Shown here: one piece after another, positions 4,099 to 28,346 of the stretch
Position numbering within the stretch: position 1 is the first letter of the stretch
Layout of the letters: every line of letters starts with the position of its first letter
Source of the DNA: a virus
Length of the DNA: 28,346 nucleotides
Virus record (IMG/VR): IMGVR_UViG_3300013132_000199
Span: 1-28,346 of that record
Reading direction: 5' to 3' (one strand)
Notes under the pieces: model-generated
Database searches by the model: none
What the model was told of the DNA's origin: nothing
The model's input: only the letters and a program-made list of their open reading frames with translations
Program-made: the position numbers and the translations under genes

Positions 4099-4102
4099 TA
4101 TT

Positions 4103-4639: not shown

Positions 4640-5321
4640 TAGTTGGCCCAGTGGTCGATTACCCACAAATTTTCAAAGACCCGAACTCGAGCAAGTCCGA
4701 CAATTAGGATATGAGTGGTCAGATCCCCGCGATGTTGTTGGTATTTTTGAACGTAAAGTAGCAGAGTTCGCAGGATCACGATATGCTGTGGCAGTGGACT
4801 GTTGTACAAATGGTGTATTTTTATGCTTAAAATATGTACAAGCCAGCGGCCAGATTGAAATTCCAAAACACACCTATCAAAGCATTCCAATGAACATTAT
4901 GCATGCCGGATGTACACCTGTGTTCAGGCAGGAGGAATGGTCGGGAATGTATCAATTACGACCATATGATATTTGGGATGCGGCTACAAGATGGCGTCGG
5001 GGCATGTATCGGGGAGGTTTGCATGTTTGTAGCTTTCAAATTAAAAAACGTGTACCAATTGGCCGCGGCGGCATGATATTAACGGATGATTATGAAGCTT
5101 ATCAATGGTTGGATAAGGCAAGATATGACGGAAGAGACCTTTCAGTTAGTCAATGGGAAGACGACGGAGACATTTGTGGATGGCACATGTACATGACTCC
5201 TGAGGATGCAGCCCGAGGAATTATGTTAATGGATCAAGTTCCTGAAGATAATCCAGACTGTGGCGGGTGGGACAACTATGCAGATTTAAGTCAAAAGAAA
5301 CTTTTTAAAAATTTAATATGA
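4626..5321 (+). CDS. Short DegT/DnrJ/EryC1-type PLP aminotransferase
   Basis: At 231 residues this is well below the usual 360-400 of sugar aminotransferases of this family. Family landmarks are kept: FAGSRYAVAVDCCTNGVFLCL (cofactor phosphate region), IPKHTYQSIPMNIMHAGCTPVF, YDIWDAATRW in place of the PLP-ring Asp motif, and SFQIKKRVPIGRGG, where K140 or K141 should bind PLP. It probably aminates a 4-keto- or 3-keto-6-deoxy nucleotide sugar, such as the product of the next gene. I chose the ATG at 4626 because upstream GTG and ATG codons would give a much larger overlap with the acetyltransferase. The stop overlaps the gmd start (4 bases, ATGA). The missing C-terminal domain leaves activity uncertain. 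Confidence 0.75.
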   Translation: MTKFNSWPSGRLPTNFQRPELEQVRQLGYEWSDPRDVVGIFERKVAEFAGSRYAVAVDCCTNGVFLCLKYVQASGQIEIPKHTYQSIPMNIMHAGCTPVFRQEEWSGMYQLRPYDIWDAATRWRRGMYRGGLHVCSFQIKKRVPIGRGGMILTDDYEAYQWLDKARYDGRDLSVSQWEDDGDICGWHMYMTPEDAARGIMLMDQVPEDNPDCGGWDNYADLSQKKLFKNLI

Positions 5322-6289
5322 AGAAGAAAGCGTTAATTACAGGTATTACCGGTCAAGATGGTAGTTATTTAACAGAATATCTATTAGAACTTGGATATGA
5401 TGTTTATGGTATTGTTCGTAGACACAGCGTACCAGAAAATCAGAGCAGTAGATTGCAACACGTAAACGATAATATAACAAGAATATATGGCGATTTGACA
5501 GACGAGTGGAGCATTGCAAAAGTAATTACAGAAGTTCAGCCTGACGAAATTTATAATTTGGCTGCAATGAGTCATGTCAGAATTAGTTTTGACATGCCCG
5601 CTTTTACTATTAAAACAAATAGTTTAGGTGTGTTAAACATGCTAGAATCGTACAGACAATTTTGTCCGACGGCTCGATTCTATCAAGCCAGCAGCAGCGA
5701 AATGTTTGGTAATAGTATAGACACAGATGGGGTACAGAGATTAACTACTCCGATGACTCCAGTCAGTCCCTATGGTTGTAGCAAAGTAATGGGATTTAAT
5801 CTAACAAGGCACTATCGTGATGCATATAAATTACATGCTTGTAATGGTATATTGTTTAATCATGAAAGTCCACGTAGAGGTACAAACTTTGTTACTAATA
5901 AAGTAGTTAAAACTGCAGTGGAAATTCGCAGAGGATTGACTGATCGATTGGAATTAGGTAATTTAGACAGCAGTCGAGATTGGGGGCATAGTTATGATTA
6001 TGTTCGTGCAATGCATTTACTGTTAAATCATGACACTGCCCGTGATTGGGTTGTCGCCACCGGTGAAAGTCATACAGTAAGAGAATTATGTCAATATGTT
6101 TTTAATAGTTTAAACTTGAACTATGAAGATTATGTAATGCAAAATCAAAAATTTTTGCGACCCGAAGAATTAAAATACCTCAGAGGCGACAGCACAGACA
6201 TACGCCAACAATTAGGTTGGACTCCGAAATATACCTTTGAATCTATGTTAGACGAAATGATTGCGTATTGGATGAAAGAAATCAAATGA
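5318..6289 (+). CDS. gmd: GDP-mannose 4,6-dehydratase
   Basis: This 323-residue short-chain dehydrogenase-fold enzyme converts GDP-mannose to GDP-4-keto-6-deoxymannose, the branch point to GDP-fucose, GDP-rhamnose and GDP-perosamine. The NADP-binding G9-x-x-G12-x-x-G15 (ITGITGQDGSYL), the SSSEMFG catalytic segment (S125-E128) and Y152-x-x-x-K156 (YGCSK) are all present. The family-typical FNHESPRRGTNFVT and LGNLDSSRDWGHSYDYV also match Gmd closely. E. coli Gmd is about 50 residues longer. No GDP-fucose synthase (WcaG type) is visible in the window. It overlaps the aminotransferase by 4 bases and the next gene by 4 (ATGA). Confidence 0.95.
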   Translation: MKKKALITGITGQDGSYLTEYLLELGYDVYGIVRRHSVPENQSSRLQHVNDNITRIYGDLTDEWSIAKVITEVQPDEIYNLAAMSHVRISFDMPAFTIKTNSLGVLNMLESYRQFCPTARFYQASSSEMFGNSIDTDGVQRLTTPMTPVSPYGCSKVMGFNLTRHYRDAYKLHACNGILFNHESPRRGTNFVTNKVVKTAVEIRRGLTDRLELGNLDSSRDWGHSYDYVRAMHLLLNHDTARDWVVATGESHTVRELCQYVFNSLNLNYEDYVMQNQKFLRPEELKYLRGDSTDIRQQLGWTPKYTFESMLDEMIAYWMKEIK

Positions 6290-7134
6290 AAAACTATGTA
6301 TTTGTAATGCCCGGCGGTGGCCCTTTTAGTAGATTTTTACAGTGTGGAATTATTCCACTGGCAGAACAACGCATAGAGTTTGATAATGCGTTTTTAACTT
6401 TAAGTCCATTCGAGGAAAATACCAACAATGACGAATATTTACAAGAAGCAGTAGATCATATTGTTCGAAACAGAACTAATATGGAAAATTATGGTATTGC
6501 TCGGCCATATGATCATATTATGAGTTACGTATTAGATCAGCACGTAGATAGGACATATGAATTTCATGGATACTTACCATTTGGAAAAATGTATACCAAT
6601 GAAGATCCCATTGAGTACAGTCCTATGCTTAATGAATATCGTCGCGTGTTAGGTAAATTTCATATACAAAACGAAATCCGAACCCGCGTGGACAATCTTT
6701 GTAATCTGGTTAACATTGGTAAAAAAACTTTGGGTGTGCATGTCAGAATGACATCCATGTCGGTACACGCCAATGTTGGGAATGTAACTTTTGAAGATTA
6801 CTGTAATGCAGTCGACGAAGAGTTAGCTACAGGATTATATGATGGTATCTACGTTGCTACAGACAATGTAGAAAGTCTCGTTAAAATGGAGCAAAAGTAT
6901 TCTCATTTGATTCGATATTATCCTTACTTACTTAGATTGCCCAATGAACAAATAACAGAACGATGGCAATGGTCATGGGAATATGATATGTTTTTCCAAA
7001 AAAAGTTTTGGCAAGAAAGTTTTATGGAAGCGATGACACTGGCCAGATGTGGCGGATTAGTATGTAGAACCAGTAATTTTAGCAATGCTGCTATTGTGTT
7101 TAGTAATTCGATCGACAGAGTTCGGCGCATATGA
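6286..7134 (+). CDS. Fucosyltransferase-like glycosyltransferase (GT23/GT65-like fold)
   Basis: I chose the ATG at 6286, which overlaps the gmd stop as ATGA; an in-frame TTG at 6268 would add six residues. The 282-residue product has LGVHVRMTSMSVHA (G150, H152, R154). This matches the H-x-R motif that binds the GDP-sugar phosphate in alpha-1,6-fucosyltransferases (NodZ, Fut8) and O-fucosyltransferases. A later LARCGGLVCRTSNFSNAAIVFS resembles their C-terminal donor-binding segment. Coupling to gmd supports a GDP-6-deoxyhexose donor. The acceptor is unknown. The family assignment is by motif only. Confidence 0.65.
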   Translation: MKNYVFVMPGGGPFSRFLQCGIIPLAEQRIEFDNAFLTLSPFEENTNNDEYLQEAVDHIVRNRTNMENYGIARPYDHIMSYVLDQHVDRTYEFHGYLPFGKMYTNEDPIEYSPMLNEYRRVLGKFHIQNEIRTRVDNLCNLVNIGKKTLGVHVRMTSMSVHANVGNVTFEDYCNAVDEELATGLYDGIYVATDNVESLVKMEQKYSHLIRYYPYLLRLPNEQITERWQWSWEYDMFFQKKFWQESFMEAMTLARCGGLVCRTSNFSNAAIVFSNSIDRVRRI

Positions 7135-7892
7135 AACATGCGTTTTTTGTCACTAGCAGCATAGAACTGGATCAAAGTAAACCATTCAAAGGTACTAAAT
7201 CCAGGACTGTGTTTTCTACTAGAGAACGATTGGAACAGACGATTCGAACGTTACAAAGTTGCCATAGTTTAGATCCTCACGCAGATGTTTATCTAATAGA
7301 CAGCAGTGTAACTCATTTTGCAGAACTATATCAAATTCCTAACTTACATTATTATAAGTTAGAACAAATTAATTCAGAAATTGCTGATACGGTTCGAACG
7401 TATCCTAATAAGTCATATTGCGAATGCTTAATGATTTTAGAGTTTTTTAAGCATTATAAATCTACATTAAAACAATACGATTTCATTACTAAATTATGCG
7501 GTAGATATTTTTTTGACGAAACATTTAATTTATCACAATACAATCAACAAAATGTTGGAAAATTTTTCTTAAAGACTCCGATGTCGTGGTCGGGGCAACA
7601 TATTGACTTTTTAACTGAAGAACAATTGCCCAAAGATTTACTAGTCAACGGCGAACTAACTGGGACTTATACTGTAGCACATGGCTTACATAGAGACAGA
7701 CTTGATCATTATGAAGCACTAATGTTTGCATGTGCTCAGAGTAGTATGAAACATGCAAAATTTTATTATCAAGATGTTGAATATAGTTTGTATTACTTTT
7801 TAAGACTTTTTAATCTATTAGACGATGTTGTAATTGTGCCATGGGATGTACACGGCCAATCGGGTGTTACTGGGAAATGGATGAAATATTAA
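7131..7892 (+). CDS. Putative glycosyltransferase, family not recognised
   Basis: This 253-residue protein starts with ATGA overlap and ends sharing one base with the next start (TAATG), inside the sugar block. It starts with a strand-like MKHAFFVTSSIEL, has a long basic helix, then ADVYLID and YDFITKLCGRYFFDETFNL. The 'K-x-x-GRY' segment recalls phage and capsule glycosyltransferases of the WavE-like kind, where it follows the sugar-binding region. No clear DxD motif is visible. The operon position is the main argument for a glycan role. Confidence 0.45.
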   Translation: MKHAFFVTSSIELDQSKPFKGTKSRTVFSTRERLEQTIRTLQSCHSLDPHADVYLIDSSVTHFAELYQIPNLHYYKLEQINSEIADTVRTYPNKSYCECLMILEFFKHYKSTLKQYDFITKLCGRYFFDETFNLSQYNQQNVGKFFLKTPMSWSGQHIDFLTEEQLPKDLLVNGELTGTYTVAHGLHRDRLDHYEALMFACAQSSMKHAKFYYQDVEYSLYYFLRLFNLLDDVVIVPWDVHGQSGVTGKWMKY

Positions 7893-8695
7893 TGCATCCT
7901 GTTAAAAGAATTGGCTATATGCCTGCATATGGGCAAAAACATCCTTACGATTTTACAAGAAGTTTCCCTCAACGAGTTTCTGTCTGCTTTGACAATGTTA
8001 ACGCAGACCCCGAAGCAGACATTAACGTATTGGTACAAAGTGAACCTCCTAATCTGTACATAAGATTTTATGGTATGGTAGTAGAAAATCAGCATAAATT
8101 TGATTTAATATTATCATATGATCCCAGAATATTAGAATTAGACAACTCACAAGAATTTTGTGCAGTAGGCAGTTGGATCAGTAACAATATCGAAATAAAA
8201 AAACGAAATCAAATTAGTTTTTTGATGAGCAGTAAAATTAATGGTGCTCCTTACAGAATGCGGTTTAAGATATTAAACAGGCTAAGGCATAAAAAAGTTA
8301 TTGGAGATTTTGAATATCTATTTCATCGTAGTCCGCCACTGGTTCCCAGTAAAGATCCGTTTTTTGCAAATGCAAAATTTAATATTGCTTGTGAAAATCA
8401 GGACATGCCTAATATGTTTACTGAAAAATTATTAGACTGTTTTAAAACTTACACAGTGCCAATCTATTTTGGTTGTCACAATGTCGACAAATATTTTAAT
8501 CCAAAAGGTATATTGCAATTTCAAACTATAGAAGAATTTGATAGAATTATTGAACAGTTACATCCTGACATGTATGATGACATGATGCCTTATGTATTAG
8601 AGAATTACGAATTAGCACGACCCTATTGGGAAAAAACTGCTTTTCAAAGAATAGAAGATGTAATAGAAAAATTCATCGCAGAGTCAAAACAGTAA
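7892..8695 (+). CDS. GT10-type alpha-1,3/1,4-fucosyltransferase-like protein
   Basis: I chose the ATG at 7892, which shares one base with the preceding TAA. The frame could also begin at ATG 7841 or 7877, inside the upstream gene. The 267-residue product has the C-terminal GT10 signature (about 160-215): FNIACENQDMPNMFTEKL, then PIYFGCHNVDKYFNPKGIL. This corresponds to the F-x-x-x-x-EN ... TEKL ... VPIxxG ... FxP ... I pattern of bacterial and animal alpha-1,3-fucosyltransferases that use GDP-fucose. The N-terminal part (VNADPEADINVLVQSEPP) also fits the family's 'EPP' segment. Together with gmd it makes 6-deoxyhexose transfer the likely theme of the block. Confidence 0.8.
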   Translation: MHPVKRIGYMPAYGQKHPYDFTRSFPQRVSVCFDNVNADPEADINVLVQSEPPNLYIRFYGMVVENQHKFDLILSYDPRILELDNSQEFCAVGSWISNNIEIKKRNQISFLMSSKINGAPYRMRFKILNRLRHKKVIGDFEYLFHRSPPLVPSKDPFFANAKFNIACENQDMPNMFTEKLLDCFKTYTVPIYFGCHNVDKYFNPKGILQFQTIEEFDRIIEQLHPDMYDDMMPYVLENYELARPYWEKTAFQRIEDVIEKFIAESKQ

Positions 8696-8700
8696 ATACA
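8691..8700 (+). promoter_or_regulatory. Candidate late promoter core
   Basis: AGTAAATACA, containing GTAAATAC, overlaps the stop codon of the fucosyltransferase gene. It lies 21 bases before the ATG at 8720, a spacing like the late elements before gp18. It matches the T4 late core TATAAATA at seven of eight positions. It could give the oxygenase gene group separate late expression. Chance occurrence is possible because TAA followed by ATA is AT-rich. Confidence 0.35.
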
Positions 8701-8719
8701 GTTATCAATTGTCCATAAT

Positions 8720-9277
8720 ATGAGAACTAATCTAATTATAACAGATGATTTTTACGGTGATCCTGACGCAATCCGTGAATTTGCATTACAACAAAAATAC
8801 GATGTAACTGGGAATTTTCCTGGTGCAAGAACACGAAGTTTTTTAACTTCAGACATACAAGAAACCATACAAACGATTGTATGGTATGCAGGAGGGGAAG
8901 TTACTAATTGGTATAATGATCACGGATATACTGGATCGTTTCAATTGACCTATGCCAGTGATCGTAGTTGGATTCATACAGATCATTTTAATAAATGGGC
9001 TGCAGTATGTTATTTAACTCCAGATGCTCCAGTTACTGGTGGCACTGGAATATTTCTATACAAAAAAAATCGTGCAATGACTTCTGCAGAAATGAATAAT
9101 GAATCATATGATCCACAGGATATGACTAAATGGGAAAAAGTTGACACTATAGCCAACAGATATAACAGATTAGTAATGTATCGGGGAGATTTATATCACA
9201 GTAGTTTGGATTATTTTGGTAGCACAGCGCAGGATGCAAGATTATTTCAAGTATTTTTCTTTGACACACAATATTAA
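8720..9277 (+). CDS. 2OG-Fe(II) oxygenase-like protein (DUF6445-like), copy 1
   Basis: This 185-residue protein looks like a compact 2-oxoglutarate/Fe(II) dioxygenase. It has an H86-T-D88 iron motif in SWIHTDHFNKW, then YLTPDAPVTGGTGIF (the strand and glycine turn that follow in this fold). A distal H160 lies in GDLYHSSLDYFG, and an R174 in ARLFQVFFF could bind 2OG. The sequence style (DDFYGDPDAIREFAL at the start) matches what I recall as DUF6445, common in marine phages. The next gene is clearly a paralogue. The substrate is unknown. Confidence 0.72.
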   Translation: MRTNLIITDDFYGDPDAIREFALQQKYDVTGNFPGARTRSFLTSDIQETIQTIVWYAGGEVTNWYNDHGYTGSFQLTYASDRSWIHTDHFNKWAAVCYLTPDAPVTGGTGIFLYKKNRAMTSAEMNNESYDPQDMTKWEKVDTIANRYNRLVMYRGDLYHSSLDYFGSTAQDARLFQVFFFDTQY

Positions 9278-9279
9278 TC

Positions 9280-9831
9280 ATGAGAATTCAAACAATTGTA
9301 ATCGACGATTTCTACAGTAACCCCGACGGGGTTAGACAATTTGCTTTGCAACAAGAATTCAAACACTGGGAAAAATTTCCAGGGCTAAGAACAAGATCAT
9401 TTTTAAATGAATCTACTAAAGTGTCACTAAGCCAGATTTTATACAATGCAGCAGGCGAAATTACTAATTGGAATGATCGTGATGGTCTGACAGGTTCGTT
9501 TGAATTAGCAACAAGCAGAGATCGCAGTTGGATTCATACTGATCATTTTAATACTTGGGCAGGATTAATTTATTTAACTCCAGATGCACCATTAAGCGGT
9601 GGAACTGGAATTTATAGATATAAACGCACAGGGGCAACACGAGCATCCGAGTTACCCGAATATGAAAGTCAAGACATGACCAAATGGGAATTGTGTGATG
9701 TAATAGGTAATAGGTATAATAGATTAGTTCTTTATCACAGCGATTTATTTCATAATAGTATGGATTATTTTGGTACTGATAAAGAAAGCGGGAGATTGTT
9801 TCAATTGTTTTTTCTAACCACTGAGTATTAA
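9280..9831 (+). CDS. 2OG-Fe(II) oxygenase-like protein (DUF6445-like), copy 2
   Basis: This 183-residue paralogue of the preceding protein starts 2 bases after its stop. It keeps the same layout: DDFYSNPDGVRQFALQQ start, H86-T-D88 in SWIHTDHFNTW, YLTPDAPLSGGTGIY, H158 in SDLFHNSMDYFG and an Arg in GRLFQLFF. Both copies keep all expected iron and 2OG ligands, so both are probably active, perhaps on different substrates or sites. The two copies are about half identical by eye, so the duplication is not recent. Confidence 0.72.
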   Translation: MRIQTIVIDDFYSNPDGVRQFALQQEFKHWEKFPGLRTRSFLNESTKVSLSQILYNAAGEITNWNDRDGLTGSFELATSRDRSWIHTDHFNTWAGLIYLTPDAPLSGGTGIYRYKRTGATRASELPEYESQDMTKWELCDVIGNRYNRLVLYHSDLFHNSMDYFGTDKESGRLFQLFFLTTEY

Positions 9832-9832
9832 A

Positions 9833-10360
9833 ATGATTATAAATCGTTTATCAAATTTTTTAGAACCAGATGTATTACAAAGCCTTAAACAAAAATACGA
9901 AAACGCTAAGGGCACTCCCGCATTTGAAGTTAATAATATGGGAAGATGGGGAGCAGGATTAGAATCGGGCAGTTATAGTCCAGTGTTAATTTTGCCATTG
10001 GAGGAATACAGGCAGTATTTTATTGACAAGTATTGTGCAGTTGATCCGATATTTAAAGACTATCAAAACTTAACAGTGTTTATGCACATCTGGTTACCTG
10101 GCAGTCAAATTAATTGGCATCACGACGAAAGCGGTACTACCCCAAGATTAAGCAGCACAATTTATATAAATGATCACTGGAATTGGAATTGGGGCGGAAT
10201 GTTTTTATACGATCATGCTGAACTTGGCCAAGGATGGGTATTTCCACATCCTAATACAGCTATTTGGTTTGTGCCTCCCCTATGGCATAGTACATCGATG
10301 GTAACACTTGCAGCAGAATTTCCCAGATTAAGCATTCAACTATTTTTTAACAAGAGTTAA
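9833..10360 (+). CDS. 2OG-Fe(II) oxygenase-like protein
   Basis: This 175-residue protein begins one base after the previous stop. The iron motif is H96-H-D98 in INWHHDESG, preceded by a hydrophobic strand (LTVFMHIWLPGS). It is followed by STIYINDHWNWNWGGMFLY, the family's strand plus 'W-x-x-x-x-GG' turn. The distal H152 is in PPLWHSTSMV and the 2OG-binding Arg in PRLSIQLFF. This is the prolyl-hydroxylase-like core at its minimal length. It differs in sequence from the DUF6445-like pair, so it is a separate lineage rather than a third copy. Confidence 0.75.
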   Translation: MIINRLSNFLEPDVLQSLKQKYENAKGTPAFEVNNMGRWGAGLESGSYSPVLILPLEEYRQYFIDKYCAVDPIFKDYQNLTVFMHIWLPGSQINWHHDESGTTPRLSSTIYINDHWNWNWGGMFLYDHAELGQGWVFPHPNTAIWFVPPLWHSTSMVTLAAEFPRLSIQLFFNKS

Positions 10361-10361
10361 T

Positions 10362-10946
10362 ATGGATCTAGATCATTGGTTTCCTTCTGTTATCGGTAGA
10401 AGTTTTCATCCTGAATGGGTCAGTCCTATGATTAACACCATGGATACCACCTTCGAACAACTGGACGGACATTTAAATACCAGTTTTTACTATAATGGTA
10501 GAACTACTTATGGCACTCGAAATTTGTATTACGAATCGGCTTTTAAAGACTTCGGTGAATTTATATTAAACAAAGGTAAAGAATTTTTAAGTCTGATGGG
10601 CTACGATGAACAAGCAGTTAATTGGCGACCATATTTGTTTGCCAATAGTTTTAAAGAAGGCAGCAGTCATCCCAAGCATGCTCATAGTCAATGCAGTATT
10701 AGCGGAATTTTTTATTTAAAAACTCCTGAAGGTAGTAGTCCTATTGTTTTTTATCCCAATCAACCTTTTAAAGATTTTTTTGACTATATGTATGCAGTCA
10801 AAGATCCTACTAACTGGTATTCGTTGCAAGAAACTCAGTATAAGCCTTATCCGGGATTATTGTTGATGTGGCCTTCCTGGTTATATCACGAAGTTAGGCC
10901 CAATGGTAGTAAAGAACCAAGAACCAGTTTAGTTTTCAATCTTTAA
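10362..10946 (+). CDS. 2OG-Fe(II) oxygenase, TIGR02466/2OG-FeII_Oxy_5-like
   Basis: This 194-residue protein has a start one base after the previous stop. HPKHAHSQCSISGIFYLKTPEGSSPIVF and PSWLYHEVRPN...RTSLVFNL match the conserved pattern of the putative 2OG-Fe(II) oxygenase family common in marine phages. Candidate ligands are H106 or H108 and H176. An acidic iron ligand like the usual HxD is not obvious, as is often so in this family. The gene ends the plus-strand block and its 3' end overlaps the minus-strand Nudix gene by 11 bases. The function in phages is not established. Confidence 0.75.
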   Translation: MDLDHWFPSVIGRSFHPEWVSPMINTMDTTFEQLDGHLNTSFYYNGRTTYGTRNLYYESAFKDFGEFILNKGKEFLSLMGYDEQAVNWRPYLFANSFKEGSSHPKHAHSQCSISGIFYLKTPEGSSPIVFYPNQPFKDFFDYMYAVKDPTNWYSLQETQYKPYPGLLLMWPSWLYHEVRPNGSKEPRTSLVFNL

Positions 10947-17088: not shown

Positions 17089-17919
17089 ATGAAAGAAATA
17101 CTATTAGAAATTATATCTAACGACCATTCTTACAATAAATCTGCTACTAGGTATTTGTATAAAACGCATCCAAAGATTTGGGATGAAATATTACAACTTA
17201 CTTCTTTTTTACCTGATGATGCTGCACCAAAACAAAGGGTTTGGCACATTCTAAATGATATCTATAAACGACCCGTTTGCCCTGTTACAAAGGAGTTTTT
17301 AAAATGGCGAGAGAAAAAATATGACAAATATTCCTCCGTTGATGCAAAAAACAGGGACATAGGCAATGTACTCAGTAAAGTTTTATCAAATGGAAATCAT
17401 TGGAGGAAAAAGGATCAAGAAAAATCTAAATTGGCGAATGAAAAATTTTCTACAGGTTTAACGTCGGGACGAATTACAATTGATAGATCTAAACGTGATT
17501 CTAAAACAATTTATAATAAATCCAAAATCACATGGATGAAGAAATATGGAGTTGACAATCCTGCAAAATCCTTAAGCGTGCGCAATAAAATCTCTAAATT
17601 AAAAATAGAAAAAGGTGCAACGCCTAAACATTTGAGAAGTTTGCGTAAACTGTATTATGATTCAGTTTGGTATTTCACAGAACAAAGTTGGAAAAATCAC
17701 TTTGATAAGATAAATCCATTAAGGATCGATAGATCAAAAAATGCTTTAGATCATATTTTTAGTATACAGCAAGGATTTATAGATAATATCCCTCCTTACA
17801 TCATTGGACATTGGACAAATCTAAGGATTATAACTTTAAGTGAAAATTCTAAAAAAGGTATGAAATGTTTTAAGACACAAGACGATTTGTTTACTGATTT
17901 TTTCAATAATATTGTATAA
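17089..17919 (+). CDS. Homing-endonuclease-like protein (HNH/His-Me finger type)
   Basis: This is a 276-residue basic protein. The C-terminal region NALDHIFSIQQGFIDNIPPYIIGHWTNLRIITLSEN, with D221-H222 and a later N, has the DHI...SI..GF...P...H..NL pattern of phage HNH-like endonucleases. A middle segment, ITWMKKYGVDNPAKSLSVRNKISK, matches the 'KYGVxNPxxSxxVxxKI' DNA-binding repeat often found in phage homing enzymes. The free-standing position right after gp13 fits a homing gene that spreads by cutting the equivalent site in relatives. It is Lys-rich and looks more AT-biased than the flanking genes, by eye. A late core precedes it directly. Confidence 0.75.
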   Translation: MKEILLEIISNDHSYNKSATRYLYKTHPKIWDEILQLTSFLPDDAAPKQRVWHILNDIYKRPVCPVTKEFLKWREKKYDKYSSVDAKNRDIGNVLSKVLSNGNHWRKKDQEKSKLANEKFSTGLTSGRITIDRSKRDSKTIYNKSKITWMKKYGVDNPAKSLSVRNKISKLKIEKGATPKHLRSLRKLYYDSVWYFTEQSWKNHFDKINPLRIDRSKNALDHIFSIQQGFIDNIPPYIIGHWTNLRIITLSENSKKGMKCFKTQDDLFTDFFNNIV

Positions 17920-17961: not shown

Positions 17962-18558
17962 ATGATTATCGGGCTTGTGGGTCTCATAGGATGTGGCAAG
18001 GATACCGCCGCGGATTATCTTGTAAATTTTCATGAATTCCGTAGAGATAGTTTTGCTGCTACATTAAAAGACGCGGTGGCAGCAGTGTTTGGTTGGGATC
18101 GTGATCTATTAGAAGGTCGCACAAAACACGCCAGAGAATGGCGTGAACAAATAGACCCGTGGTGGAGCCAGCGATTAAATATGCCCGAACTAACTCCTCG
18201 ATTAATACTACAACTTTGGGGCACAGAAGTATGTCGTCAAGGATTTCATGATGCAATTTGGATCGCAAGTTTAGAAAACAAACTGAGACAAGCTCAAGAC
18301 AACGTGGTAATCAGTGATTGTAGATTCCCTAATGAAATAGCAGCAATTCGATCAGCAGGTGGACGAGTAATTAGAATTGTTCGCGGTCCAGATCCTGAAT
18401 GGTTTAAAACTGCAAGATTTCATCCAGAGGCTATGAAGCAAGATTGGCCTGAAATTCATGCAAGTGAATATAGTTGGGCCGCAACAGATTTTGACCGCAT
18501 AATCGAAAACAATGGATCAATTCAAGATTTATATGACGAACTTAAAAATCTGGTGTAA
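17962..18558 (+). CDS. 1: Deoxynucleoside monophosphate kinase (T4 gp1-like)
   Basis: This 198-residue protein has a P-loop GLIGCGKDT (G7 to T15) at the very start. It continues with EGRTKHAREWREQID, LILQLWGTEVCRQGFHDAIWI and VVISDCRFPNEIAAIRSAGG. This is the pattern of T4 gene 1 dNMP kinase, which phosphorylates dGMP, dTMP and modified dCMP to feed phage DNA synthesis. T4 gp1 is about 240 residues, so this is a compact version. A short AAGGG lies about 12 bases before the ATG. Its 3' end overlaps the minus-strand HNH gene by 17 bases. Confidence 0.88.
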   Translation: MIIGLVGLIGCGKDTAADYLVNFHEFRRDSFAATLKDAVAAVFGWDRDLLEGRTKHAREWREQIDPWWSQRLNMPELTPRLILQLWGTEVCRQGFHDAIWIASLENKLRQAQDNVVISDCRFPNEIAAIRSAGGRVIRIVRGPDPEWFKTARFHPEAMKQDWPEIHASEYSWAATDFDRIIENNGSIQDLYDELKNLV

Positions 18559-18913
18559 TTGGACTTTCCCGCCACGGCAATGTACTATTTGCTATTTCTA
18601 TTCTACAATTTAGACAAACAGATTTAAGATTGACCGATACAGTATTTTTTAAATTTCCATCTACGTGATACACTGTTAACTGTTTGTCGGGAAACTTTGC
18701 AATGTAGCCGCATTTTTCACAATGCGGCTTTTTTCTATAACCAGATTTAAACCATGCAGGAGGTTTTGGTTTTAGTCTTTTACCTTTACGTATACAACTA
18801 TCGCATAATTTCCTATAATGGTAAGCGTCATTTTTTATGTAATTTACTGCAGCAGGAATACAGTTACATACAGCACATAGTGGTCTGGGCATAGAATTAT
18901 TTACCGTCGTCAT
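18542..18913 (-). CDS. Zinc-ribbon HNH endonuclease-like protein
   Basis: I chose the ATG at 18913 (123 residues). AAAGG lies eight bases upstream; MPRPLC at 18892 and a TTG at 18958 are alternatives. Four CxxC pairs are present: C13/C16, C37/C40, C65/C68 and C100/C103. The core VYHVDGNLKN...VNLKSVCLNC (H83, D85, N95) is the phage HNH form with structural zinc. It may cut DNA as a small homing or packaging-associated nuclease, or bind zinc only. It lies antisense between gp1 and gp18, a typical site for a mobile endonuclease insert. Only one clear catalytic His is visible, so activity is uncertain. Confidence 0.72.
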   Translation of the reverse strand: MTTVNNSMPRPLCAVCNCIPAAVNYIKNDAYHYRKLCDSCIRKGKRLKPKPPAWFKSGYRKKPHCEKCGYIAKFPDKQLTVYHVDGNLKNTVSVNLKSVCLNCRIEIANSTLPWRESPITPDF

Positions 18914-18920
18914 TAAGTAA

Positions 18921-18934
18921 ACCTTTGCAAAGGT
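18921..18934. promoter_or_regulatory. Perfect 14-base palindrome upstream of the HNH gene
   Basis: ACCTTTGCAAAGGT is fully self-complementary. It lies 8 bases before the HNH start and contains that gene's Shine-Dalgarno (AAAGG on the minus strand). It could fold and hide the ribosome site, or be a dimer-binding operator. On the plus strand its AAAGG can instead pair with CCTTT at 18946-18950, leading into a T-run before gp18, a weak terminator. Confidence 0.3.
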
Positions 18935-18963
18935 AGTGCAATAAGCCTTTTTTTCCAAGTTTC

Positions 18964-18996: not shown

Positions 18997-21900
18997 ATGG
19001 CTTTAACTTCTCCAGGTGTACAAGTTACAGTTATTGATGAAAGTAATTACGCGCCAGCTGCTACAGGATCGGTTGCTTATGTGCTATTAGTAACGGCTGA
19101 AAACAAATTAGCTCCAGGCGGGTCTGCTTTTGCTGCTGGCACGCTTAAAGAAAATGCAGGCAGAGTATATACAATTACTAGTCAACGTGATTTAAGCACT
19201 ACTTTTGGTTATCCAATTTTCGAAACTACTGCAGGCGGTGCAGCTATCAACGGCGACGAACAAAACGAATATGGTTTATTGGCTGCTTATAGTGCACTTG
19301 GTGTCAGTAACAGAATTTATGTACAACGTGCAGATGTAGATTTAAGCGCACTCGAAGGAACTACGGTACGCCCGTTAGCTAATCCCAGCAATGGAAATAT
19401 TTGGTTAGATGTGGCTTCTAGTAGATGGGGCATTGCAGAATGGAACAGTGCTACCCAAAATTGGGTAACAAGAAATCCTAGCGTTATTACAAGTACAGAT
19501 TTTTTAGCAGCTGATAACTTTACACCAAATGTTAACTTTGGTTCAATAGGTGATTATGCAGTAAATGCTTATGACCCCTACAACCCAGTATTCTACAAAA
19601 TTTATGATAACACCTGGCAACAAGTGGGCAATGCTTCATGGCAAATTGGAATTCCATCAGTAACCGGTACAGTTACAAATCCTACAATCAGTACTGGTGG
19701 TACAATTACAATTAATGGCTCGTCTATTATTATTTCGGGCGGGGCAGATTTAACCACAGTTAGAGATACCATTAATAGTGCTGCAGTAGCTGGAATCTTA
19801 GCAAGAATAGCAAACAATCAGTTAGTAATCAGTGCTAACAGTGCAGCAACCGGTAATGTGGCCAACATACAAAATGTATCAGGTAGCACATTAACTGATT
19901 TAGGAATTACAGCTGGAGCATATCCTGCTGCAGCTACCAGTATTGCACCCTATACTAATGTGCCAAGTTGGCAAGGTAATGCATTTGTTGGTAAGCCGTC
20001 GGGCAGTGTATGGCAAATCGCTACTGCTAATAGAAGTGGTATGAACATGGTTGTAAAAGAGTTCGATTCTACTTCTGTAACTTGGGATACACTAAGTGTT
20101 AATGGTTACGCTAACATTTTTGCAGCAACTTTTGGTCTCGATCCCACTGGGGGCGGAGCAAATATTAATGAAGGCATCGTGTTTAACCAATATGATCCTT
20201 ATGGTAACAGCGTATTGGCTAACTACATTTGGCGTAGAAAAAACACCGGAACAACTACAATCACTGGTAATACAACTAGCCCAAGTGCTGCCAATATAGG
20301 TGCAACTTTTACAGTTACAACCAGAGCCAATTTAACATTATCAAATTTGACATCGTATACTGTTACGATTTCTAGTGCAACAGTTAATGGATTTATTCAG
20401 GCTGTGGCTGCTGCTAATATTCCGTATGTGACTGCAAACTTAAGTACAACTGGTGCAATGACATTGGTGCATCAAACTGGCGGAGATTTATTGTTAGTGG
20501 ACGGTGCAGGAACTCCATTGGCTAACATCGGTATTAATAGTGCAGCCACAAATGTTTACGCAACACCCACAGTGGGGGATGCAGGTTTATACGGAACCAA
20601 TTGGGAACCATTAGAAGAAAAAACTTACACTCCAAAAGCTACTCAACCTTATGTTGCACCTGCAAACACAACATTATGGTATTATAACACTCCAAGCAGG
20701 GTGGATATCATGGTAAGTAATGGTACTGCATGGTTAGGATATCAAAATCTCACAAATGATATTCGTGGGTATAACTTATCGCAAACTAACCCAACTGGTG
20801 TAATTTTATCGACGGAAGAACCGACTACTCAAGACGATGGAACTGCATTAGTATACGGTGATCTTTGGTTAGATACCAGCGACTTAGAAAATTATCCAAA
20901 ATTATATCGTTATCAGAATGTAAACGGTATCGACCAATGGGTGCTAATAGATAATACAGATGCTGTAAGTCAAAATGGTATCATATTTGGAGATGCACGC
21001 TGGGCTACTAGTGGAAGTGTTGATCCTGCTATAGACACTATTCCAAGTATCACAAGTTTGTTAACCAGCAACTATGTTGATTTAGATGTACCGGATCCAC
21101 AACTATATCCAAGAGGAATGTTATTGTGGAATACCAGAGCCAGTGGATATAATGTAAAAGAATTTAGAACTAATTACTTTAATGCTGCGGCATATCCCAA
21201 TGAAAGTTTACCTGCACAGAAAAATGCGTGGATCAGTGTAAGTGGTTTTGATGTGTCGGGAGTTCCAAATTTTGGTAGAAAAGCACCAAGAGGAGTAGTT
21301 GTTGCTGCTCTTAAAGCATCAATTGATTCAAGTAGTGCATTAAGAGAAGACGCAAATCAGTTTAATTTAATTTCGTGTCCTGGGTATACAGAACTTATCC
21401 CCAATATGATTACATTAAATGAAGACAGAGAAAATACTGCATTTATTATCGGTGACACTCCGTTAAGACTAGTGGCTACAGGAACAGATATTCAAGCTTG
21501 GGCAACAAATTCTGAAAGTGTCACTCAAACGGGGGAGGATGGTTTAAATACTATAAGTCCTTATGTTGGAATTTACTATCCACAAGGTCAAACAAACGAC
21601 TTAAGTGGAAATGCAGTTGTGGTTCCAGCAAGCCATGCAGTATTAAGAGCCATGCTGAAGAGTGACAATATCAGTTATCCATGGTTTGCACCTGCAGGAA
21701 CACGTAGGGGGTTAATTGACAATTTAAATGCAATTGGATACATTCAACCTACCAGTGGGCAGTTTATTTCAATTGGGGTCGAACAAGGTTTAAGAGACGT
21801 ACTTTACACTAATAAAATTAATCCTCTTACTTTCTTACCAGGAAATGGATTACTAATATATGGACAAAAGACATTGAGTGCTACTCCAAGTGCATTAGAT

Positions 21901-22251
21901 AGAATTAATGTGGCAAGATTGGTTAATTATTTAAGACAGCAACTAAATGTTCTTGCAAGACCGTTCATTTTTGAACCAAATGATCCTATTACACGAAATC
22001 AAATTTTAACAGTTGTTAACAGTTTGCTCAATGATTTGATTACAAAGCGTGGAATTACAGATTATCTTGCAGTATGTGATACAACAAATAATACTCCGGA
22101 ACGTATTGCCAGAAATGAATTATATGTAGATGTAGCAGTTCAACCCACAAAAGACGTTGAATTTATCTACATTCCAATTAGATTGAAAAATCCTGGTGAA
22201 ATTCAAGGAGGAAACTTAGCCTCAGCCTCAACCTTAGGAACAGGAGCATAA
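18997..22251 (+). CDS. 18: gp18-like tail sheath protein, enlarged
   Basis: This 1084-residue protein (T4 gp18 has 659) forms the contractile sheath. The start MALTSPGVQVTVIDES and the C-terminal third (RGVVVAALKASIDSSSALREDANQFNLISCPGYTE, VVVPASHAVLRAMLKSDN, YPWFAPAG, RGLIDNLNAIGYI, RINVARLVNYLRQQLNVLARPFIFEPND) are sheath hallmarks. The middle carries extra domains: residues about 228-308 and 418-515 look like flagellin-hook IN-type modules (TITINGSSIIISGGADLTTV..IN..A..G). Trp-rich stretches such as GDLWLDTSDLENYPKLYRYQ (about 622-653) lie between. The insertions presumably sit on the outer sheath surface. The stop is one base before the gp19 start, so the two are coupled. Confidence 0.95.
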   Translation: MALTSPGVQVTVIDESNYAPAATGSVAYVLLVTAENKLAPGGSAFAAGTLKENAGRVYTITSQRDLSTTFGYPIFETTAGGAAINGDEQNEYGLLAAYSALGVSNRIYVQRADVDLSALEGTTVRPLANPSNGNIWLDVASSRWGIAEWNSATQNWVTRNPSVITSTDFLAADNFTPNVNFGSIGDYAVNAYDPYNPVFYKIYDNTWQQVGNASWQIGIPSVTGTVTNPTISTGGTITINGSSIIISGGADLTTVRDTINSAAVAGILARIANNQLVISANSAATGNVANIQNVSGSTLTDLGITAGAYPAAATSIAPYTNVPSWQGNAFVGKPSGSVWQIATANRSGMNMVVKEFDSTSVTWDTLSVNGYANIFAATFGLDPTGGGANINEGIVFNQYDPYGNSVLANYIWRRKNTGTTTITGNTTSPSAANIGATFTVTTRANLTLSNLTSYTVTISSATVNGFIQAVAAANIPYVTANLSTTGAMTLVHQTGGDLLLVDGAGTPLANIGINSAATNVYATPTVGDAGLYGTNWEPLEEKTYTPKATQPYVAPANTTLWYYNTPSRVDIMVSNGTAWLGYQNLTNDIRGYNLSQTNPTGVILSTEEPTTQDDGTALVYGDLWLDTSDLENYPKLYRYQNVNGIDQWVLIDNTDAVSQNGIIFGDARWATSGSVDPAIDTIPSITSLLTSNYVDLDVPDPQLYPRGMLLWNTRASGYNVKEFRTNYFNAAAYPNESLPAQKNAWISVSGFDVSGVPNFGRKAPRGVVVAALKASIDSSSALREDANQFNLISCPGYTELIPNMITLNEDRENTAFIIGDTPLRLVATGTDIQAWATNSESVTQTGEDGLNTISPYVGIYYPQGQTNDLSGNAVVVPASHAVLRAMLKSDNISYPWFAPAGTRRGLIDNLNAIGYIQPTSGQFISIGVEQGLRDVLYTNKINPLTFLPGNGLLIYGQKTLSATPSALDRINVARLVNYLRQQLNVLARPFIFEPNDPITRNQILTVVNSLLNDLITKRGITDYLAVCDTTNNTPERIARNELYVDVAVQPTKDVEFIYIPIRLKNPGEIQGGNLASASTLGTGA

Positions 22252-22940: not shown

Positions 22941-25322
22941 ATGGCTGCTTTATATAATTCGGGATTGAAACCATTAGGCAATAATCCTACTCAACCCTAT
23001 CAACATGCTGCAAAATTGTTTTTAGAAGACAATTTTCGTCTTGCACCTAAACAAAGTTTTTTATATTATGTAGTAATTAATTTCGATCCTTCGGTAAGGG
23101 AAGCCGAGGGTATTTTTGCTAATCTTGTAAGCTTTGCAGAACGTTATCAATTTTTTGAAACTGGTATGTTGGTAAAACGTGCCGAACTTCCTAAGTTTCA
23201 AATTGACACAAAAATTTTAAATGCTTACAATAGAAAGAATGTGTTAACTACTAAAATTAATTATGAAAATGTAAATCTAACTTTTCACGATGATGCTGCT
23301 GATGTAGTTACTAATTTTTGGAATGACTATTATACTTACTATTTTAGAGATAGTGATTATGATCCATTGGCATATAGACAGTTGAATAGATATAATCTAA
23401 GATCCAAAGTTGGCTGGGGTTTTAGTCCTAGAAATCAATCTTTACCTTCTTTGCTTAGTAACATACGAATTTTTAGTTTGCATAACAAAAGATTCACCGA
23501 ATATATGCTGGTGAATCCAGTTATTACTCAATGGCGACATGGAGAATTGGACAGTTCAGAAAGCACCGGAATTTTAACTAATACAATGACAGTTAATTAT
23601 GAAACTGTAAAGTACTTTACGGGCTACGTAGATCCAGTAGTAGTCGATGGGTTCACCTTATTGCATTACGATAATCGTCCAAGTCCATTGGCAACAAGTA
23701 CCACTAATTTTTACTCTAGTGCAGGAATTTTAGGTGTTATAGACGGAGTAGCAAAAGATTTAAAAAACCCAGATGGCACAAACGGTGCAGGTGGGCCTTT
23801 AAGTAATTTATTAACACTATACAAAACATATAATAATCTAAAAGGTGTAAATTTTAAAAATGCAGTAAGTGCAAGTTTAGGACAATTAGTTGGCGGAGTA
23901 GCTAATCAAGTTCTTAATGGAAGAAATCCTTTTGCTTTCCCAACAACAGGATCTAATAGTACCAGCCAAGTTGCGGCTGCACCAGTCCAAATTGGTAACT
24001 CAGGAATAGCCAGAATAACCGATGCAAATGGTGGTAGTCTTATTGCTGCATCTGCTCCTGGAGTTAATAGCGGATCTAATATTATTGATCAAGGTCTGGC
24101 ATTTGTTAATCGCGGAATACAGACCGGTATTAATGCTACAACTAATTTTGTAAGAACAGGATCCATTTTTGATTCAACAAGTAGTGGAGGAAGAATTGCA
24201 GTAAATGCATCTACATTACAAGTACCAACAGGTTCAGCGACGGGAATTTTAACTGATTCATCTGGAAGAGCTGTTTCATCCTTTACAACTTTAGGAGCAC
24301 AGGCTGGGACTTTCAATCCCAGTAATATAGAACAAAATAAAGTATCTACTCAAACAACATTTGACGAAGTGGGAAATAAGTATTTTATTAATACATATCA
24401 AGATGGAACACAGGTAACCTTAGACAGTAACAATCGTATTTTATCTACTTTCCCGGGCCGTGCATCCAATGCAACAAATATTAATACTAATCCAATTGAT
24501 GCAAGAACTTTAGCAGCTAATGGAGGAACTATTAATCAAGCTGGGCCACAGTATAGAACCGATCCAAAAACAGGGTTAGTGTACACAGTAGGAGGAACTA
24601 CTAGTGCTCAAATTACCAATACATTAACGGGTACAGCAGGTGTGGCCAGCGGTTTGGTTGCAGGACAGGCAATTAATGCACAATTAAATAAAAGCTTTTT
24701 AGGCGACAGTGTAATTGGAAGAACTGTTAGTGCAGCTATTGCTACCTCGACAGGTTCTGCAATTGGTCGTGCAGTAAACAATGGTCTACAGCCTATCGTG
24801 AATACTGCGTCTGGTGCAATTGTACAAGGATGGGATAAAGTAACAGGCGAGATTAAAAATGTGGTAGGAAGTTGGACTGGCACAGGTGGATATGACCCAC
24901 AACAACCATGGAAAAATGTCGTAAGCAGTGTAGAAGAAGTGGACGAAGAGGGCTTTGTCAGTGTTAAAACAACTTATAAAGATGGTACACAAGTATTTGA
25001 AGATAATGAAGGAAATCAACTGGGTGTATTAAACGGGTCAAACAATGGCGGGTTATTAAGTTTCTTTAATAAAACACCTGGGCAAAATACAGATGACATT
25101 GCCAGTTCTCCGGGTGTAGGAAGTTATTTAACAGATGGCAGCGGCAACCCAGTATATAGTCAATCTGGGGAAGTATGGAATTATACTGGGACAGAACAGG
25201 ATACTTCAGATTATGTTAGCAGGGAAGGTTATTACGAAAGTTCTTCAGAAGGACCAAATATTGAACCTTGGACTCCTACTTCAGACGATGATTCTTGGTC
25301 AGAGTGGAGCGATTGGGGTTAA
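22941..25322 (+). CDS. Tail tube-fold baseplate/tail protein (gp19/gp54-like) with long C-terminus
   Basis: This is a 793-residue protein. The first 230 residues resemble the tube fold: KQSFLYYVVINFDPSV, MLVKRAELPKFQIDTKILNAYNRKNVLTTKINYENVNLTFHDDAADVVTNFW and WGELDSSE..LTNTMTVNYETVKYF. In T4, gp54 shares this fold and starts the tube on the baseplate, so a gp54-like role fits, though another tail protein is possible. From about 240 to 793 the sequence is Gly/Ser/Asn/Thr-rich. It includes Ala-Gly helical stretches (GVASGLVAGQAINA, SAAIATSTGSAIGRAV) and two YxDGTQV..D.N repeats. It ends in an acidic Trp-rich tail (DDDSWSEWSDWG). Expression is from the leaderless-type late core before it. Confidence 0.7.
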   Translation: MAALYNSGLKPLGNNPTQPYQHAAKLFLEDNFRLAPKQSFLYYVVINFDPSVREAEGIFANLVSFAERYQFFETGMLVKRAELPKFQIDTKILNAYNRKNVLTTKINYENVNLTFHDDAADVVTNFWNDYYTYYFRDSDYDPLAYRQLNRYNLRSKVGWGFSPRNQSLPSLLSNIRIFSLHNKRFTEYMLVNPVITQWRHGELDSSESTGILTNTMTVNYETVKYFTGYVDPVVVDGFTLLHYDNRPSPLATSTTNFYSSAGILGVIDGVAKDLKNPDGTNGAGGPLSNLLTLYKTYNNLKGVNFKNAVSASLGQLVGGVANQVLNGRNPFAFPTTGSNSTSQVAAAPVQIGNSGIARITDANGGSLIAASAPGVNSGSNIIDQGLAFVNRGIQTGINATTNFVRTGSIFDSTSSGGRIAVNASTLQVPTGSATGILTDSSGRAVSSFTTLGAQAGTFNPSNIEQNKVSTQTTFDEVGNKYFINTYQDGTQVTLDSNNRILSTFPGRASNATNINTNPIDARTLAANGGTINQAGPQYRTDPKTGLVYTVGGTTSAQITNTLTGTAGVASGLVAGQAINAQLNKSFLGDSVIGRTVSAAIATSTGSAIGRAVNNGLQPIVNTASGAIVQGWDKVTGEIKNVVGSWTGTGGYDPQQPWKNVVSSVEEVDEEGFVSVKTTYKDGTQVFEDNEGNQLGVLNGSNNGGLLSFFNKTPGQNTDDIASSPGVGSYLTDGSGNPVYSQSGEVWNYTGTEQDTSDYVSREGYYESSSEGPNIEPWTPTSDDDSWSEWSDWG

Positions 25323-25695: not shown

Positions 25696-26133
25696 ATGTC
25701 TAAATACAGTCAGGGCAAATATGAAATACAAAATCCTACAAAATATGTAGGGCGTAAACAACCGACTTATCGTTCGAGTTGGGAATTTGCATTTATGAAT
25801 TTTTGTGATCGCAACCCTTCAGTGCTTAATTGGGCAAGTGAAGCATTGCACATAAATTATCGTAATCCTTTTACTGGCAAAAATACAATTTATGTGCCTG
25901 ATTTTTTAATCGTATATCAAGACCGTAACGGAAAAAATCACGCAGAAGTCATCGAAGTAAAACCATCAAAAGAAACTACAATGGAATCGGCCCGCAGTGT
26001 GAGAGACAAAGCAGCAGTGGCATTAAACATGGCCAAGTGGGAAGCAGCAAGAAAGTTTTGTGCAAGCCAAGGTATGACTTTTAGAGTAGTAAATGAAACA
26101 GACATTTTCCATCAAGGAACCAAAAAACGGTAA
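25696..26133 (+). CDS. 4: gp4-like head completion protein
   Basis: This is a 145-residue protein like T4 gp4 (gp50/65), needed to finish the head before tail joining. GKYEIQNPTKYVGRKQPTYRSSWEFAFMNFCDRNPSVLNWASEALHINY matches the family start. P68-D69 in YVPDFLIVYQD and E87-V-K89 in AEVIEVKPSKE form a PD-(D/E)xK nuclease core, as in TnsA-type endonucleases to which gp4 has been compared. It might trim DNA at the head vertex. It ends at a TAA that is part of the next late promoter core. Confidence 0.9.
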   Translation: MSKYSQGKYEIQNPTKYVGRKQPTYRSSWEFAFMNFCDRNPSVLNWASEALHINYRNPFTGKNTIYVPDFLIVYQDRNGKNHAEVIEVKPSKETTMESARSVRDKAAVALNMAKWEAARKFCASQGMTFRVVNETDIFHQGTKKR

Positions 26134-26676: not shown

Positions 26677-27297
26677 ATGAAATCGTTTCGAACTTATCTT
26701 ACCGAAAGTCATAAAACATTTGATTTTAGGATTAGACTAGCATGCGAATTGCCAGATGATTTACTATCAAAAGTTAAGACTGTATTAGAAGCTTATAAAC
26801 TAGATAGTATCACTAAACCTAAACGTTTACCTATTCAAGAAACTCCTGAGTTTCCAAATTTGGGCCCTGTGGAGATTCATGTTATGGATGCAGTATTTCA
26901 TTACCCCTGTAATGATGAACAAGTTCGAACATTGATCGCAGAACGTGCAGGAATTAATTTAGCATGCATCCGCGTTACTCCGAAAAATAGCCCCTATGAA
27001 GCAGCTCGAGAAGGATTAGAACAAAGTAATATAGGCAGCAAAGCTGGTGACTCTGTCTTACTACAAGACAATATGGAACGTGAACGTCCAGGAGCTGGAG
27101 GCAAAGAACTAGTAGGCGATGCTCGTATTCCTAATCTAATTAAAGAATTAGAAGAAACACGAAAATATCAATATACCCAAGCTGAAGGTGCGCCGACACA
27201 AAAGGCAAAAACAACAAACGATTTACCAGTAGGAAAAAACAGTCCCTTAGGTGGACATAAACCTAAATTACCGCCGGCAGGCCGTGGAAGAAAATAA
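26677..27297 (+). CDS. Putative head-packaged protein with a capsid-targeting leader
   Basis: This is a 206-residue protein with a good ribosome site. Its first ten residues MKSFRTYLTE closely match the T4 internal-protein leader MKTYQEFIAE in length and pattern (MK[ST][FY]xx[FY][IL]xE). The T4 prohead protease gp21 cuts after that Glu (LxE or IxE). The mature part begins SHKTFDFRIRLACELPDDLL, forms a compact alpha/beta domain to about residue 105, and ends in a Gly/Pro/Lys-rich tail (NSPLGGHKPKLPPAGRGRK). An internal virion protein, ejected with DNA, or a prohead core component, is the likely role. From memory, leaders like MKSFKxFL are common in marine T4-like phages. Other LxE/IxE sites inside, such as LIAE, would also need to be protected. 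Confidence 0.65.
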   Translation: MKSFRTYLTESHKTFDFRIRLACELPDDLLSKVKTVLEAYKLDSITKPKRLPIQETPEFPNLGPVEIHVMDAVFHYPCNDEQVRTLIAERAGINLACIRVTPKNSPYEAAREGLEQSNIGSKAGDSVLLQDNMERERPGAGGKELVGDARIPNLIKELEETRKYQYTQAEGAPTQKAKTTNDLPVGKNSPLGGHKPKLPPAGRGRK

Positions 27298-27299
27298 TT

Positions 27300-28346
27300 A
27301 TGAGCAACGACATTTACAAAATTCTTAATAATTTTAATAAATTAACTGAGCAAAAGCCCGAGTCTGCTCGGTCTCCTGAAGCCAAGCCTAAAACCAAACT
27401 GCAAGAAAACATAGAACAGATTGACAGCAAATATACACAATATCGTCAAACATTGATGGAAATGGACAAGTCTCAAAAACCACCTGGCCGAGATGGTGCA
27501 AGTACGGATACTGACGCAGGGCCCCAGGGTGTTGCTAAACCTATCAAGTCTTCAGATATGGCTAGACATGCAGGAAAAACTCTTAATAAAGCAGTAAAAA
27601 AATCAAGAGGTCTTAAAGAAACACAGCAAGGTGTGGCGGAAGGCTCTTTAGAAGAAGTCAGTTTAGATTTAGCCAAACGGGCCAGAGACAAGGCTGAGTA
27701 TTTTGTTGACATGGACTATGACGACATGCGGTATCGGCCCTACGGTTATAGTGAAAAACAAAGAAGCAAATTTCAGAGATACATTGACCGTAAAGAACCC
27801 CGAGCTAAGGGAGATCGAGATTGGGATCCACCAAAGAAGAAAGGTGTGGCGGAGGGCACGGCTGTGCCTTGGCAAGTTGTTATAAATGCCTTAGCTAGTG
27901 GATATCCGGATTCAGATCCTACAGACAGCCTGGCTCCCATAATGCGTAAATATGGTGTAGAGTTTGATGACTTAAATCTTTTAGCTAGAAGAAATGGCTA
28001 CAATGATATCTATGCTGTGTTGGATGATTTTGGTCAAAAACAAGGTGTGGCGGAAGGCTCCTTGAATGAGTTCGCTCCTGGTAAACAAGGTGGCGATGGT
28101 GATTATCTAAGGACTTTGGCCAGTGCTTGGTATAATGACACATTCAACACTGGTAGCCTACAACAGGGCATTAAAAGTCAAGAAGATGTTGAGCGTGTGT
28201 TGGCACGTGGCATTGTATGTCCTGATGGCAAAACAAGAAAATACAACATTGACTACAATGGTGACTTTGATGGTGTTCAAATCTACAGCGATGACTATTA
28301 CGAACATGGCGATGTAGACGGTAGTACCGATACACGAACCGGTCGA
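27300..28346 (+). CDS. Modular protein with repeated GVAEG linkers, possible packaged polyprotein, 3' end missing
   Basis: The frame is open from the ATG at 27300 to the last base (349 codons, no stop). The N-terminus MSNDIYKILNNFNKLTE17 ends, like its neighbour's leader, in LTE. A hydrophilic first segment follows, with a partial linker QGVAKP. Full GVAEG linkers occur at residues 111-115, 182-186 and 249-253. They separate segments of 71 and 67 residues, plus one of at least 97. The segments are unrelated: a Tyr/Asp/Arg-rich one, a helical one (VINALASGYPDSDP, IMRKYGVEFDDLNLLARRNGY), and one starting NEFAPGKQGGDGDYLRTLASAWYN. V-A-E-G resembles the T4 prohead protease site I-A-E/A. From memory, GVAEG-type linkers recur in uncultured marine phage proteins; their function is not known to me. 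Confidence 0.7.
   Translation, partial: MSNDIYKILNNFNKLTEQKPESARSPEAKPKTKLQENIEQIDSKYTQYRQTLMEMDKSQKPPGRDGASTDTDAGPQGVAKPIKSSDMARHAGKTLNKAVKKSRGLKETQQGVAEGSLEEVSLDLAKRARDKAEYFVDMDYDDMRYRPYGYSEKQRSKFQRYIDRKEPRAKGDRDWDPPKKKGVAEGTAVPWQVVINALASGYPDSDPTDSLAPIMRKYGVEFDDLNLLARRNGYNDIYAVLDDFGQKQGVAEGSLNEFAPGKQGGDGDYLRTLASAWYNDTFNTGSLQQGIKSQEDVERVLARGIVCPDGKTRKYNIDYNGDFDGVQIYSDDYYEHGDVDGSTDTRTGR
27628..28061 (+). repeat. Three dispersed copies of the GVAEG linker DNA
   Basis: The 17-base core AAGGTGTGGCGGA(A/G)GGC occurs at about 27628, 27841 and 28042, all in the same frame. The first and third are also followed by TC and Ser. Spacings are 213 and 201 bases. The segments between differ, so the identical linkers stand out at DNA level. 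That would allow recombination between copies to add, lose or swap modules. Confidence 0.75.

Follow-up and report, generated by a model that had tools for sequence, protein, structure and literature searches.

The last gene in a 28,346-nt stretch of DNA (the window) from a giant freshwater bacterial virus is, on strong support, a cassette polyprotein in which the linker DNA marks the points where modules are exchanged. This conclusion follows from shared segments that are bounded by linkers, from permuted module orders and from the occurrence of one module (M1) in a gp22-like scaffold gene for which empty sites are also found. Our preferred reading, with a probability of about 60%, is that this gene of a T4-like jumbo phage specifies internal head proteins strung together as a cassette polyprotein, from which the S77 prohead protease releases the modules to be injected with the DNA.

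Results

A modular gene among head genes

The initial annotation of this DNA had described GVAEG linkers at residues 111-115, 182-186 and 249-253 between unrelated segments, and this layout was confirmed in the open reading frame at 27300-28346 (Table 1). Mutual similarity was not evident among its four segments, M0 to M3. At the DNA level all three linkers are exact matches to GGTGTGGCGGARGGC, a sequence absent elsewhere in the window; the chance level for this sequence at up to three mismatches was a mean of 0.33 sites per shuffled window. In the overlapping contig L124 the gene is 65 nt longer and stops within a fourth linker (LDE-GVAEG).

Table 1 Positions of the polyprotein gene, its parts and selected neighbouring genes in the window.
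Feature	Position	Strand	Remarks
Tail sheath, Rak2/PA5oct/Atu_ph07-type	18997..22251	+	Nearest sheaths in T4-like jumbo phages, among them PA5oct and Atu_ph07
T4 gp4-type head closure / TnsA-like protein	25696..26133	+	Head gene
Putative virion structural protein, neighbour gene	26677..27297	+	Weak phrog_14802 match
Modular polyprotein gene	27300..28346	+	349 aa, last ORF of window, 3' end cut by contig end
M0	27300..27629	+	Residues 1-110; conserved leader MSNDIYKILNNFNK and first segment
Candidate cleavage site LQE36/N37	27399..27410	+	L[QEA]E/[NS] in relatives
Linker 1, GVAEG	27630..27644	+	Residues 111-115; E114/G115
Module M1	27645..27842	+	Residues 116-181
Linker 2, GVAEG	27843..27857	+	Residues 182-186; E185/G186
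Module M2	27858..28043	+	Residues 187-248
Linker 3, GVAEG	28044..28058	+	Residues 249-253; E252/G253
Module M3	28059..28346	+	Residue 254 onward, truncated by contig end

The leader MSNDIYKILNNFNK is common to about 20 relatives, each of them downstream of the same neighbour gene. E17, which closes the LTE at residues 15-17, had earlier been proposed as the leader cut; this did not hold, as the position is not conserved and relatives have LIEQ or VAQE there. In contrast, the position of residues 34-37 is kept in relatives as L[QEA]E/[NS] (the slash marks the putative cut), and judged by conservation LQE36/N37 is the better supported candidate for leader cleavage.

The type of tail sheath places the phage in the T4-like jumbo lineage, and the gp4-type gene places the polyprotein locus among head genes. 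Upstream of the polyprotein lie this gp4-type head closure gene, a small protein weakly resembling an internal head protein and the putative structural protein that adjoins it. The latter has a weak homologue in PA5oct gp202, which is annotated by ESI-MS/MS. The gene that follows in PA5oct, gp203, is the syntenic counterpart of the window polyprotein and carries a structural-protein annotation based on ESI-MS/MS; sequence similarity between the two is limited to a short motif. An [LM]xxLAG motif, possibly a core-binding motif, was seen several times per protein in gp203 and in the GVAEG-free polyproteins of L149, L150, L166 and L171.

Several other features of the window were recorded. Its first open reading frame (1-470) has long collagen-like GPxGP repeats and a non-repetitive C-terminal part, and is probably a tail fibre. 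By inspection, a cluster of glycosyltransferase-like, sugar-nucleotide and 2-oxoglutarate oxygenase-like genes (2016-10946) lies within the structural region, and two HNH endonuclease-like genes (17089-17919 and 18542-18958, minus strand) lie near the sheath gene; in PA5oct a Hef-like homing endonuclease adjoins the sheath gene. A second tail-tube-like protein of 793 aa (22941-25322) is extended at its C terminus by a long stretch of low complexity.

The linker is conserved as DNA

Scanning IMG/VR with the 20-mer CARGGTGTNGCNGARGGCWC returned at least 120 stretches, and among the matches listed 136 of 136 fell in the GVAEG frame of a long open reading frame, so the linker is more than a chance word. 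Ninety-eight of these 136 were in open reading frames with at least two linkers of the form G[VIM]xE[GA], and several contigs had two polyprotein open reading frames each. Among the matches listed, the segments running from linker to linker numbered 293 (median 75 aa) and formed 184 families, 24 of which were present in three or more contigs. Detailed tracing covered the window lineage and a subset of the carriers. Matches in GTDB bacterial genomes were scattered and seldom repeated (82 of 118 in the GVAEG frame) and were set aside as carriers because they look like chance. Among isolated phages, tblastn searches of INPHARED gave no match for the polyproteins of L124 and L087; for another carrier and one GVAEG-free relative, the matches were confined to single short domains from cyanophages and other phages.

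The conserved stretch is approximately AACAAGGTGTGGCGGAAGGCTC, about 20 bp with sharp edges, and all 209 distinct linker contexts are in one frame. In 57 linkers outside the search pattern, the valine was encoded by GTG in 95% (25% background) and the alanine by GCG in 93% (11% background). Spelling the GVAEG peptide without G at third positions gave 28 matches in the whole collection, half of them out of frame and including one clear polyprotein (L102) and one possible (L428); matches to synonymous codings of the peptide do not rise above background. Together with the codon bias, this indicates that the linker is preserved or propagated as a DNA word. Two other candidate functions were rejected: the logo downstream of the linker shows no start codon enrichment that would indicate internal translation starts, and the RNA folds no better than shuffles, with no significant hairpin.

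Modules are exchanged at the linkers

Modules are permuted between relatives. The window has the order M0-M1-M2-M3, and L125-L127 have M3-M1-M2 and, after these, other modules, at 95-100% identity, which excludes a module order that is always the same. When all polyproteins were compared at the protein level, 31% of the interior segments shared by two of them had a start no more than 3 aa from a linker in each (null 0.1%); 38% of left breakpoints at the DNA level are at a linker (null 0.08%). Shared modules differ between contexts, with a median DNA identity of 85%. A further insertion, at a pre-existing V-D-E site, is seen in L067, which has a module at the place of the lone KSVDEES of L008.

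M1 also occurs in L125, L139, L141, L143 and L145, and in the gp22-like scaffold of L134/L203. In the gp22-type prohead scaffold gene of L203 it is inserted in frame, as VVNM-KGVAEG-M1-PPKK-QASSGNK, and both L204 and L278 have the empty site VVNM-QASSGNK. The right junction of this insertion is without a linker, and no target-site duplication was seen when L203 was compared with L204 and L278. The earlier proposal that conserved linker DNA lets modules be swapped is therefore borne out by breakpoints at linkers, by permuted orders and by M1 in different genes.

Separately, compared with L228, the gp22-like open reading frames of L225-L227 have an N-terminal insert of about 80 aa that lacks GVAEG linkers. 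Insertions may be generally frequent at the scaffold N-terminus.

The linkers resemble prohead protease sites

In 7 of 21 large carriers we found a T4-type head block consisting of the portal, gp67-like and gp68-like proteins, an S77 protease, a gp22-like scaffold and Gp23, arranged in T4 order, with E values of about 1e-96 to 1e-100 for full-length Gp23 and 1e-26 to 1e-29 for the protease. The S77 protease was found in only these seven and lies outside the window contig. The other 14 large carriers are linear and may be incomplete; five of them have a window-type sheath or a T4-type portal, and no HK97-type S78 protease was found in the large carriers lacking S77.

The capsid proteins of the seven carriers have L-x-E/[NS] near the start of the T4 mature chain; P3 is leucine in these sites versus valine in the linkers. 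In variant linkers the P1 glutamate is nearly fixed and P2 is tolerant, and a hydrophobic-x-E/small site is retained even where the DNA of variant linkers and of module ends differs. The end of M3 has an invariant L-x-E across 17 aligned relatives of 50-98% identity. Leaders like the T4 capsid-targeting sequence (CTS; hydrophobic-x-E, then a small residue) were found in 57% of carriers versus 21% of control open reading frames, with the glutamate at position 8-9 in most of them, resembling the T4 sequence; in the window leader, LTE17 is not conserved and LQE36 is. Hydrophobic-x-E/small sites were also 3.3-fold over shuffles in seven relatives of the window gene without GVAEG. In an AF2 model of M1-M2, linkers were below pLDDT 50.

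It is therefore likely, given S77 and gp23 in seven carriers, the candidate L-x-E sites at the capsid-protein propeptide, the CTS-like leaders, the conserved P3 and P1 at module ends, the site enrichment and the disordered linkers, that the prohead protease cleaves these proteins. From this indirect support we infer that the linkers are cut by a T4-type S77 protease.

We consider it rather unlikely that the linker is a DNA recombination joint only, the protein being packaged or used uncut or acting as core scaffold. A function at the DNA level would suffice for the frozen synonymous linker sites and for the breakpoints clustered in the linker, and the constant frame would follow automatically. 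Against it, linkers and module ends of different DNA keep hydrophobic-x-E/small, and GVAEG-free relatives are enriched for such sites. The carriers are, moreover, head genes, and in T4 the S77 protease acts on capsid, core and internal proteins (PMC9958956).

Modules are maintained as proteins

Across different carrier genes, dN/dS of M1 was mostly 0.02-0.1 where dS was near 1. Similarly, M3 had a median dN/dS of 0.12, and values for the two modules together were mostly 0.02-0.24. M1 and M3 are thus under strong purifying selection. In the AF2 model of M1-M2, M2 is a helical domain (pLDDT about 70-87) and M1 is poorly defined. M3 was modelled as a small alpha/beta domain (pLDDT 75, pTM 0.69), for which a fold search returned no significant match to a known fold. 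Some modules match GNAT acetyltransferases, a cytidine deaminase or DUFs, and most are without a recognisable domain. Pfam scans of 27 polyproteins gave no peptidase above the cut-off and one sub-threshold C39-like match.

These data bear on whether the modules are disposable core filler, chopped by the protease and lost from the head, so that their identity matters little. T4 gp22, gp67 and gp68 are degraded (PMC9958956), and M1 within a gp22-like scaffold would fit this idea. The strong purifying selection on M1 and M3 and the modules that match GNAT acetyltransferases or a deaminase argue against it, and we regard it as improbable.

Selection for protein sequence also speaks against the modules being selfish mobile mini-elements that sit in disposable head proteins and are moved by a dedicated nuclease or recombinase recognising the linker word. 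The precise in-frame insertion into gp22 with its empty sites, the linker conserved as DNA and the homing endonuclease gene in the syntenic block of PA5oct would all suit such an element; the gp22-like insertion lacks a visible target-site duplication, however, and a recombinase or endonuclease was not consistently noted beside the arrays in an unsystematic look, which leaves this explanation with a slim chance. That errors of metagenome assembly at short repeats produced the permutation has only the slightest probability. In favour of this, every carrier comes from a metagenome, contig L124 stops within a linker, and misjoining at a repeat that is in frame would leave the reading frame intact. 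Against it, arrays are found again in separate IMG/VR records, many of them belonging to different datasets, with 99.8-100% identity across 383-964 aa; modules shared between contexts vary in sequence; the gp22-like insertion has no linker at its right junction; and the 20-bp repeat is shorter than usual assembler k-mers.

Discussion

Modules of about 60-120 aa are joined in frame by the DNA-identical word AACAAGGTGTGGCGGAAGGCTC of about 20 bp, and we propose that they make up a cassette polyprotein of internal head proteins that would be built into the prohead core. After prohead assembly, the S77 protease would cut V-A-E/G after the glutamates and free the modules within the head. By analogy with T4, the freed modules may stay with the DNA and enter the host at ejection, for example to act against its defences. 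The most probable route of exchange would be recombination between linker words through their short homology. T4 recombines in this manner at other places (PMC9391042), and identical joints would thus be enough for shuffling. More tentatively, and at slightly less than even odds, a single word of about 20 bp could serve both as the recombination joint for gathering and reordering cargo modules and as the site where the prohead protease separates them within the head ahead of injection, in a combinatorial, integron-like kit of injected effectors.

If true, this would reveal how sets of injected proteins are put together and quickly exchanged by large phages, a process from which new counter-defence proteins would be likely to arise. 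Searches can also use the linker word as a tag; it delimits at least 184 families of small, mostly uncharacterised modules. The proposal makes the testable claim that a T4-type head protease has a role beyond capsid maturation.

In the journal papers searched, those available without subscription, we found no description of GVAEG linkers or of a shuffled phage polyprotein of this kind. In T4, gp21 cleaves the core proteins and trims the leader off internal proteins (PMC9958956). The T-even internal proteins are a diverse, injected defence set sharing only the CTS, and IPI* among them is an injected inhibitor of 76 residues (PMC3012670). The likeness to IPI, IPII, IPIII and Alt of T4 lies in small diverse proteins, T4-type heads, a short N-terminal leader that here may likewise end in hydrophobic-x-E and, in carriers, the same protease family (gp21, S77) and head operon. 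In T4, however, these are separate genes whose products are cut once after the CTS, whereas here many modules share one open reading frame with repeated internal candidate sites and DNA-conserved joints.

Multiple prohead protease cuts per protein are known from gp22, gp67 and gp68 and from the long propeptides of SPN3US and phiKZ head proteins, and one module is inserted in a gp22-like gene here. The cuts in those proteins remove scaffold or propeptides, and exchangeable folded modules between cuts are not described for them (PMC9958956, PMC5694885, PMC10052503).

Polyvalent proteins similarly combine several unrelated domains per polypeptide with extensive mosaicism, and have been proposed to be delivered with the DNA, their proteolytic release being compared with that of polyproteins (PMC5512222). 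The mosaic trait is found here as well, with at least 184 families, permuted, among 293 segments. Polyvalent proteins depend on peptidase domains of their own and on large known domains (PMC5512222), whereas the protease inferred here is a separate prohead protease, the modules are small and the joint is uniform and DNA-identical; Pfam scans of the 27 polyproteins revealed no clear embedded peptidase that could release them.

PeSL promoter/stem-loop cassettes of T4-like phages place short conserved DNA words between exchangeable modules, and these words are thought to mediate module shuffling (cited in PMC4503421). PeSL is an intergenic promoter and stem-loop, whereas the linker word has no significant hairpin, lies within a reading frame and encodes a peptide. 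Parts of the system thus resemble T4 internal proteins, polyvalent proteins and PeSL, and its uniform, in-frame, DNA-conserved joint differs from all three.
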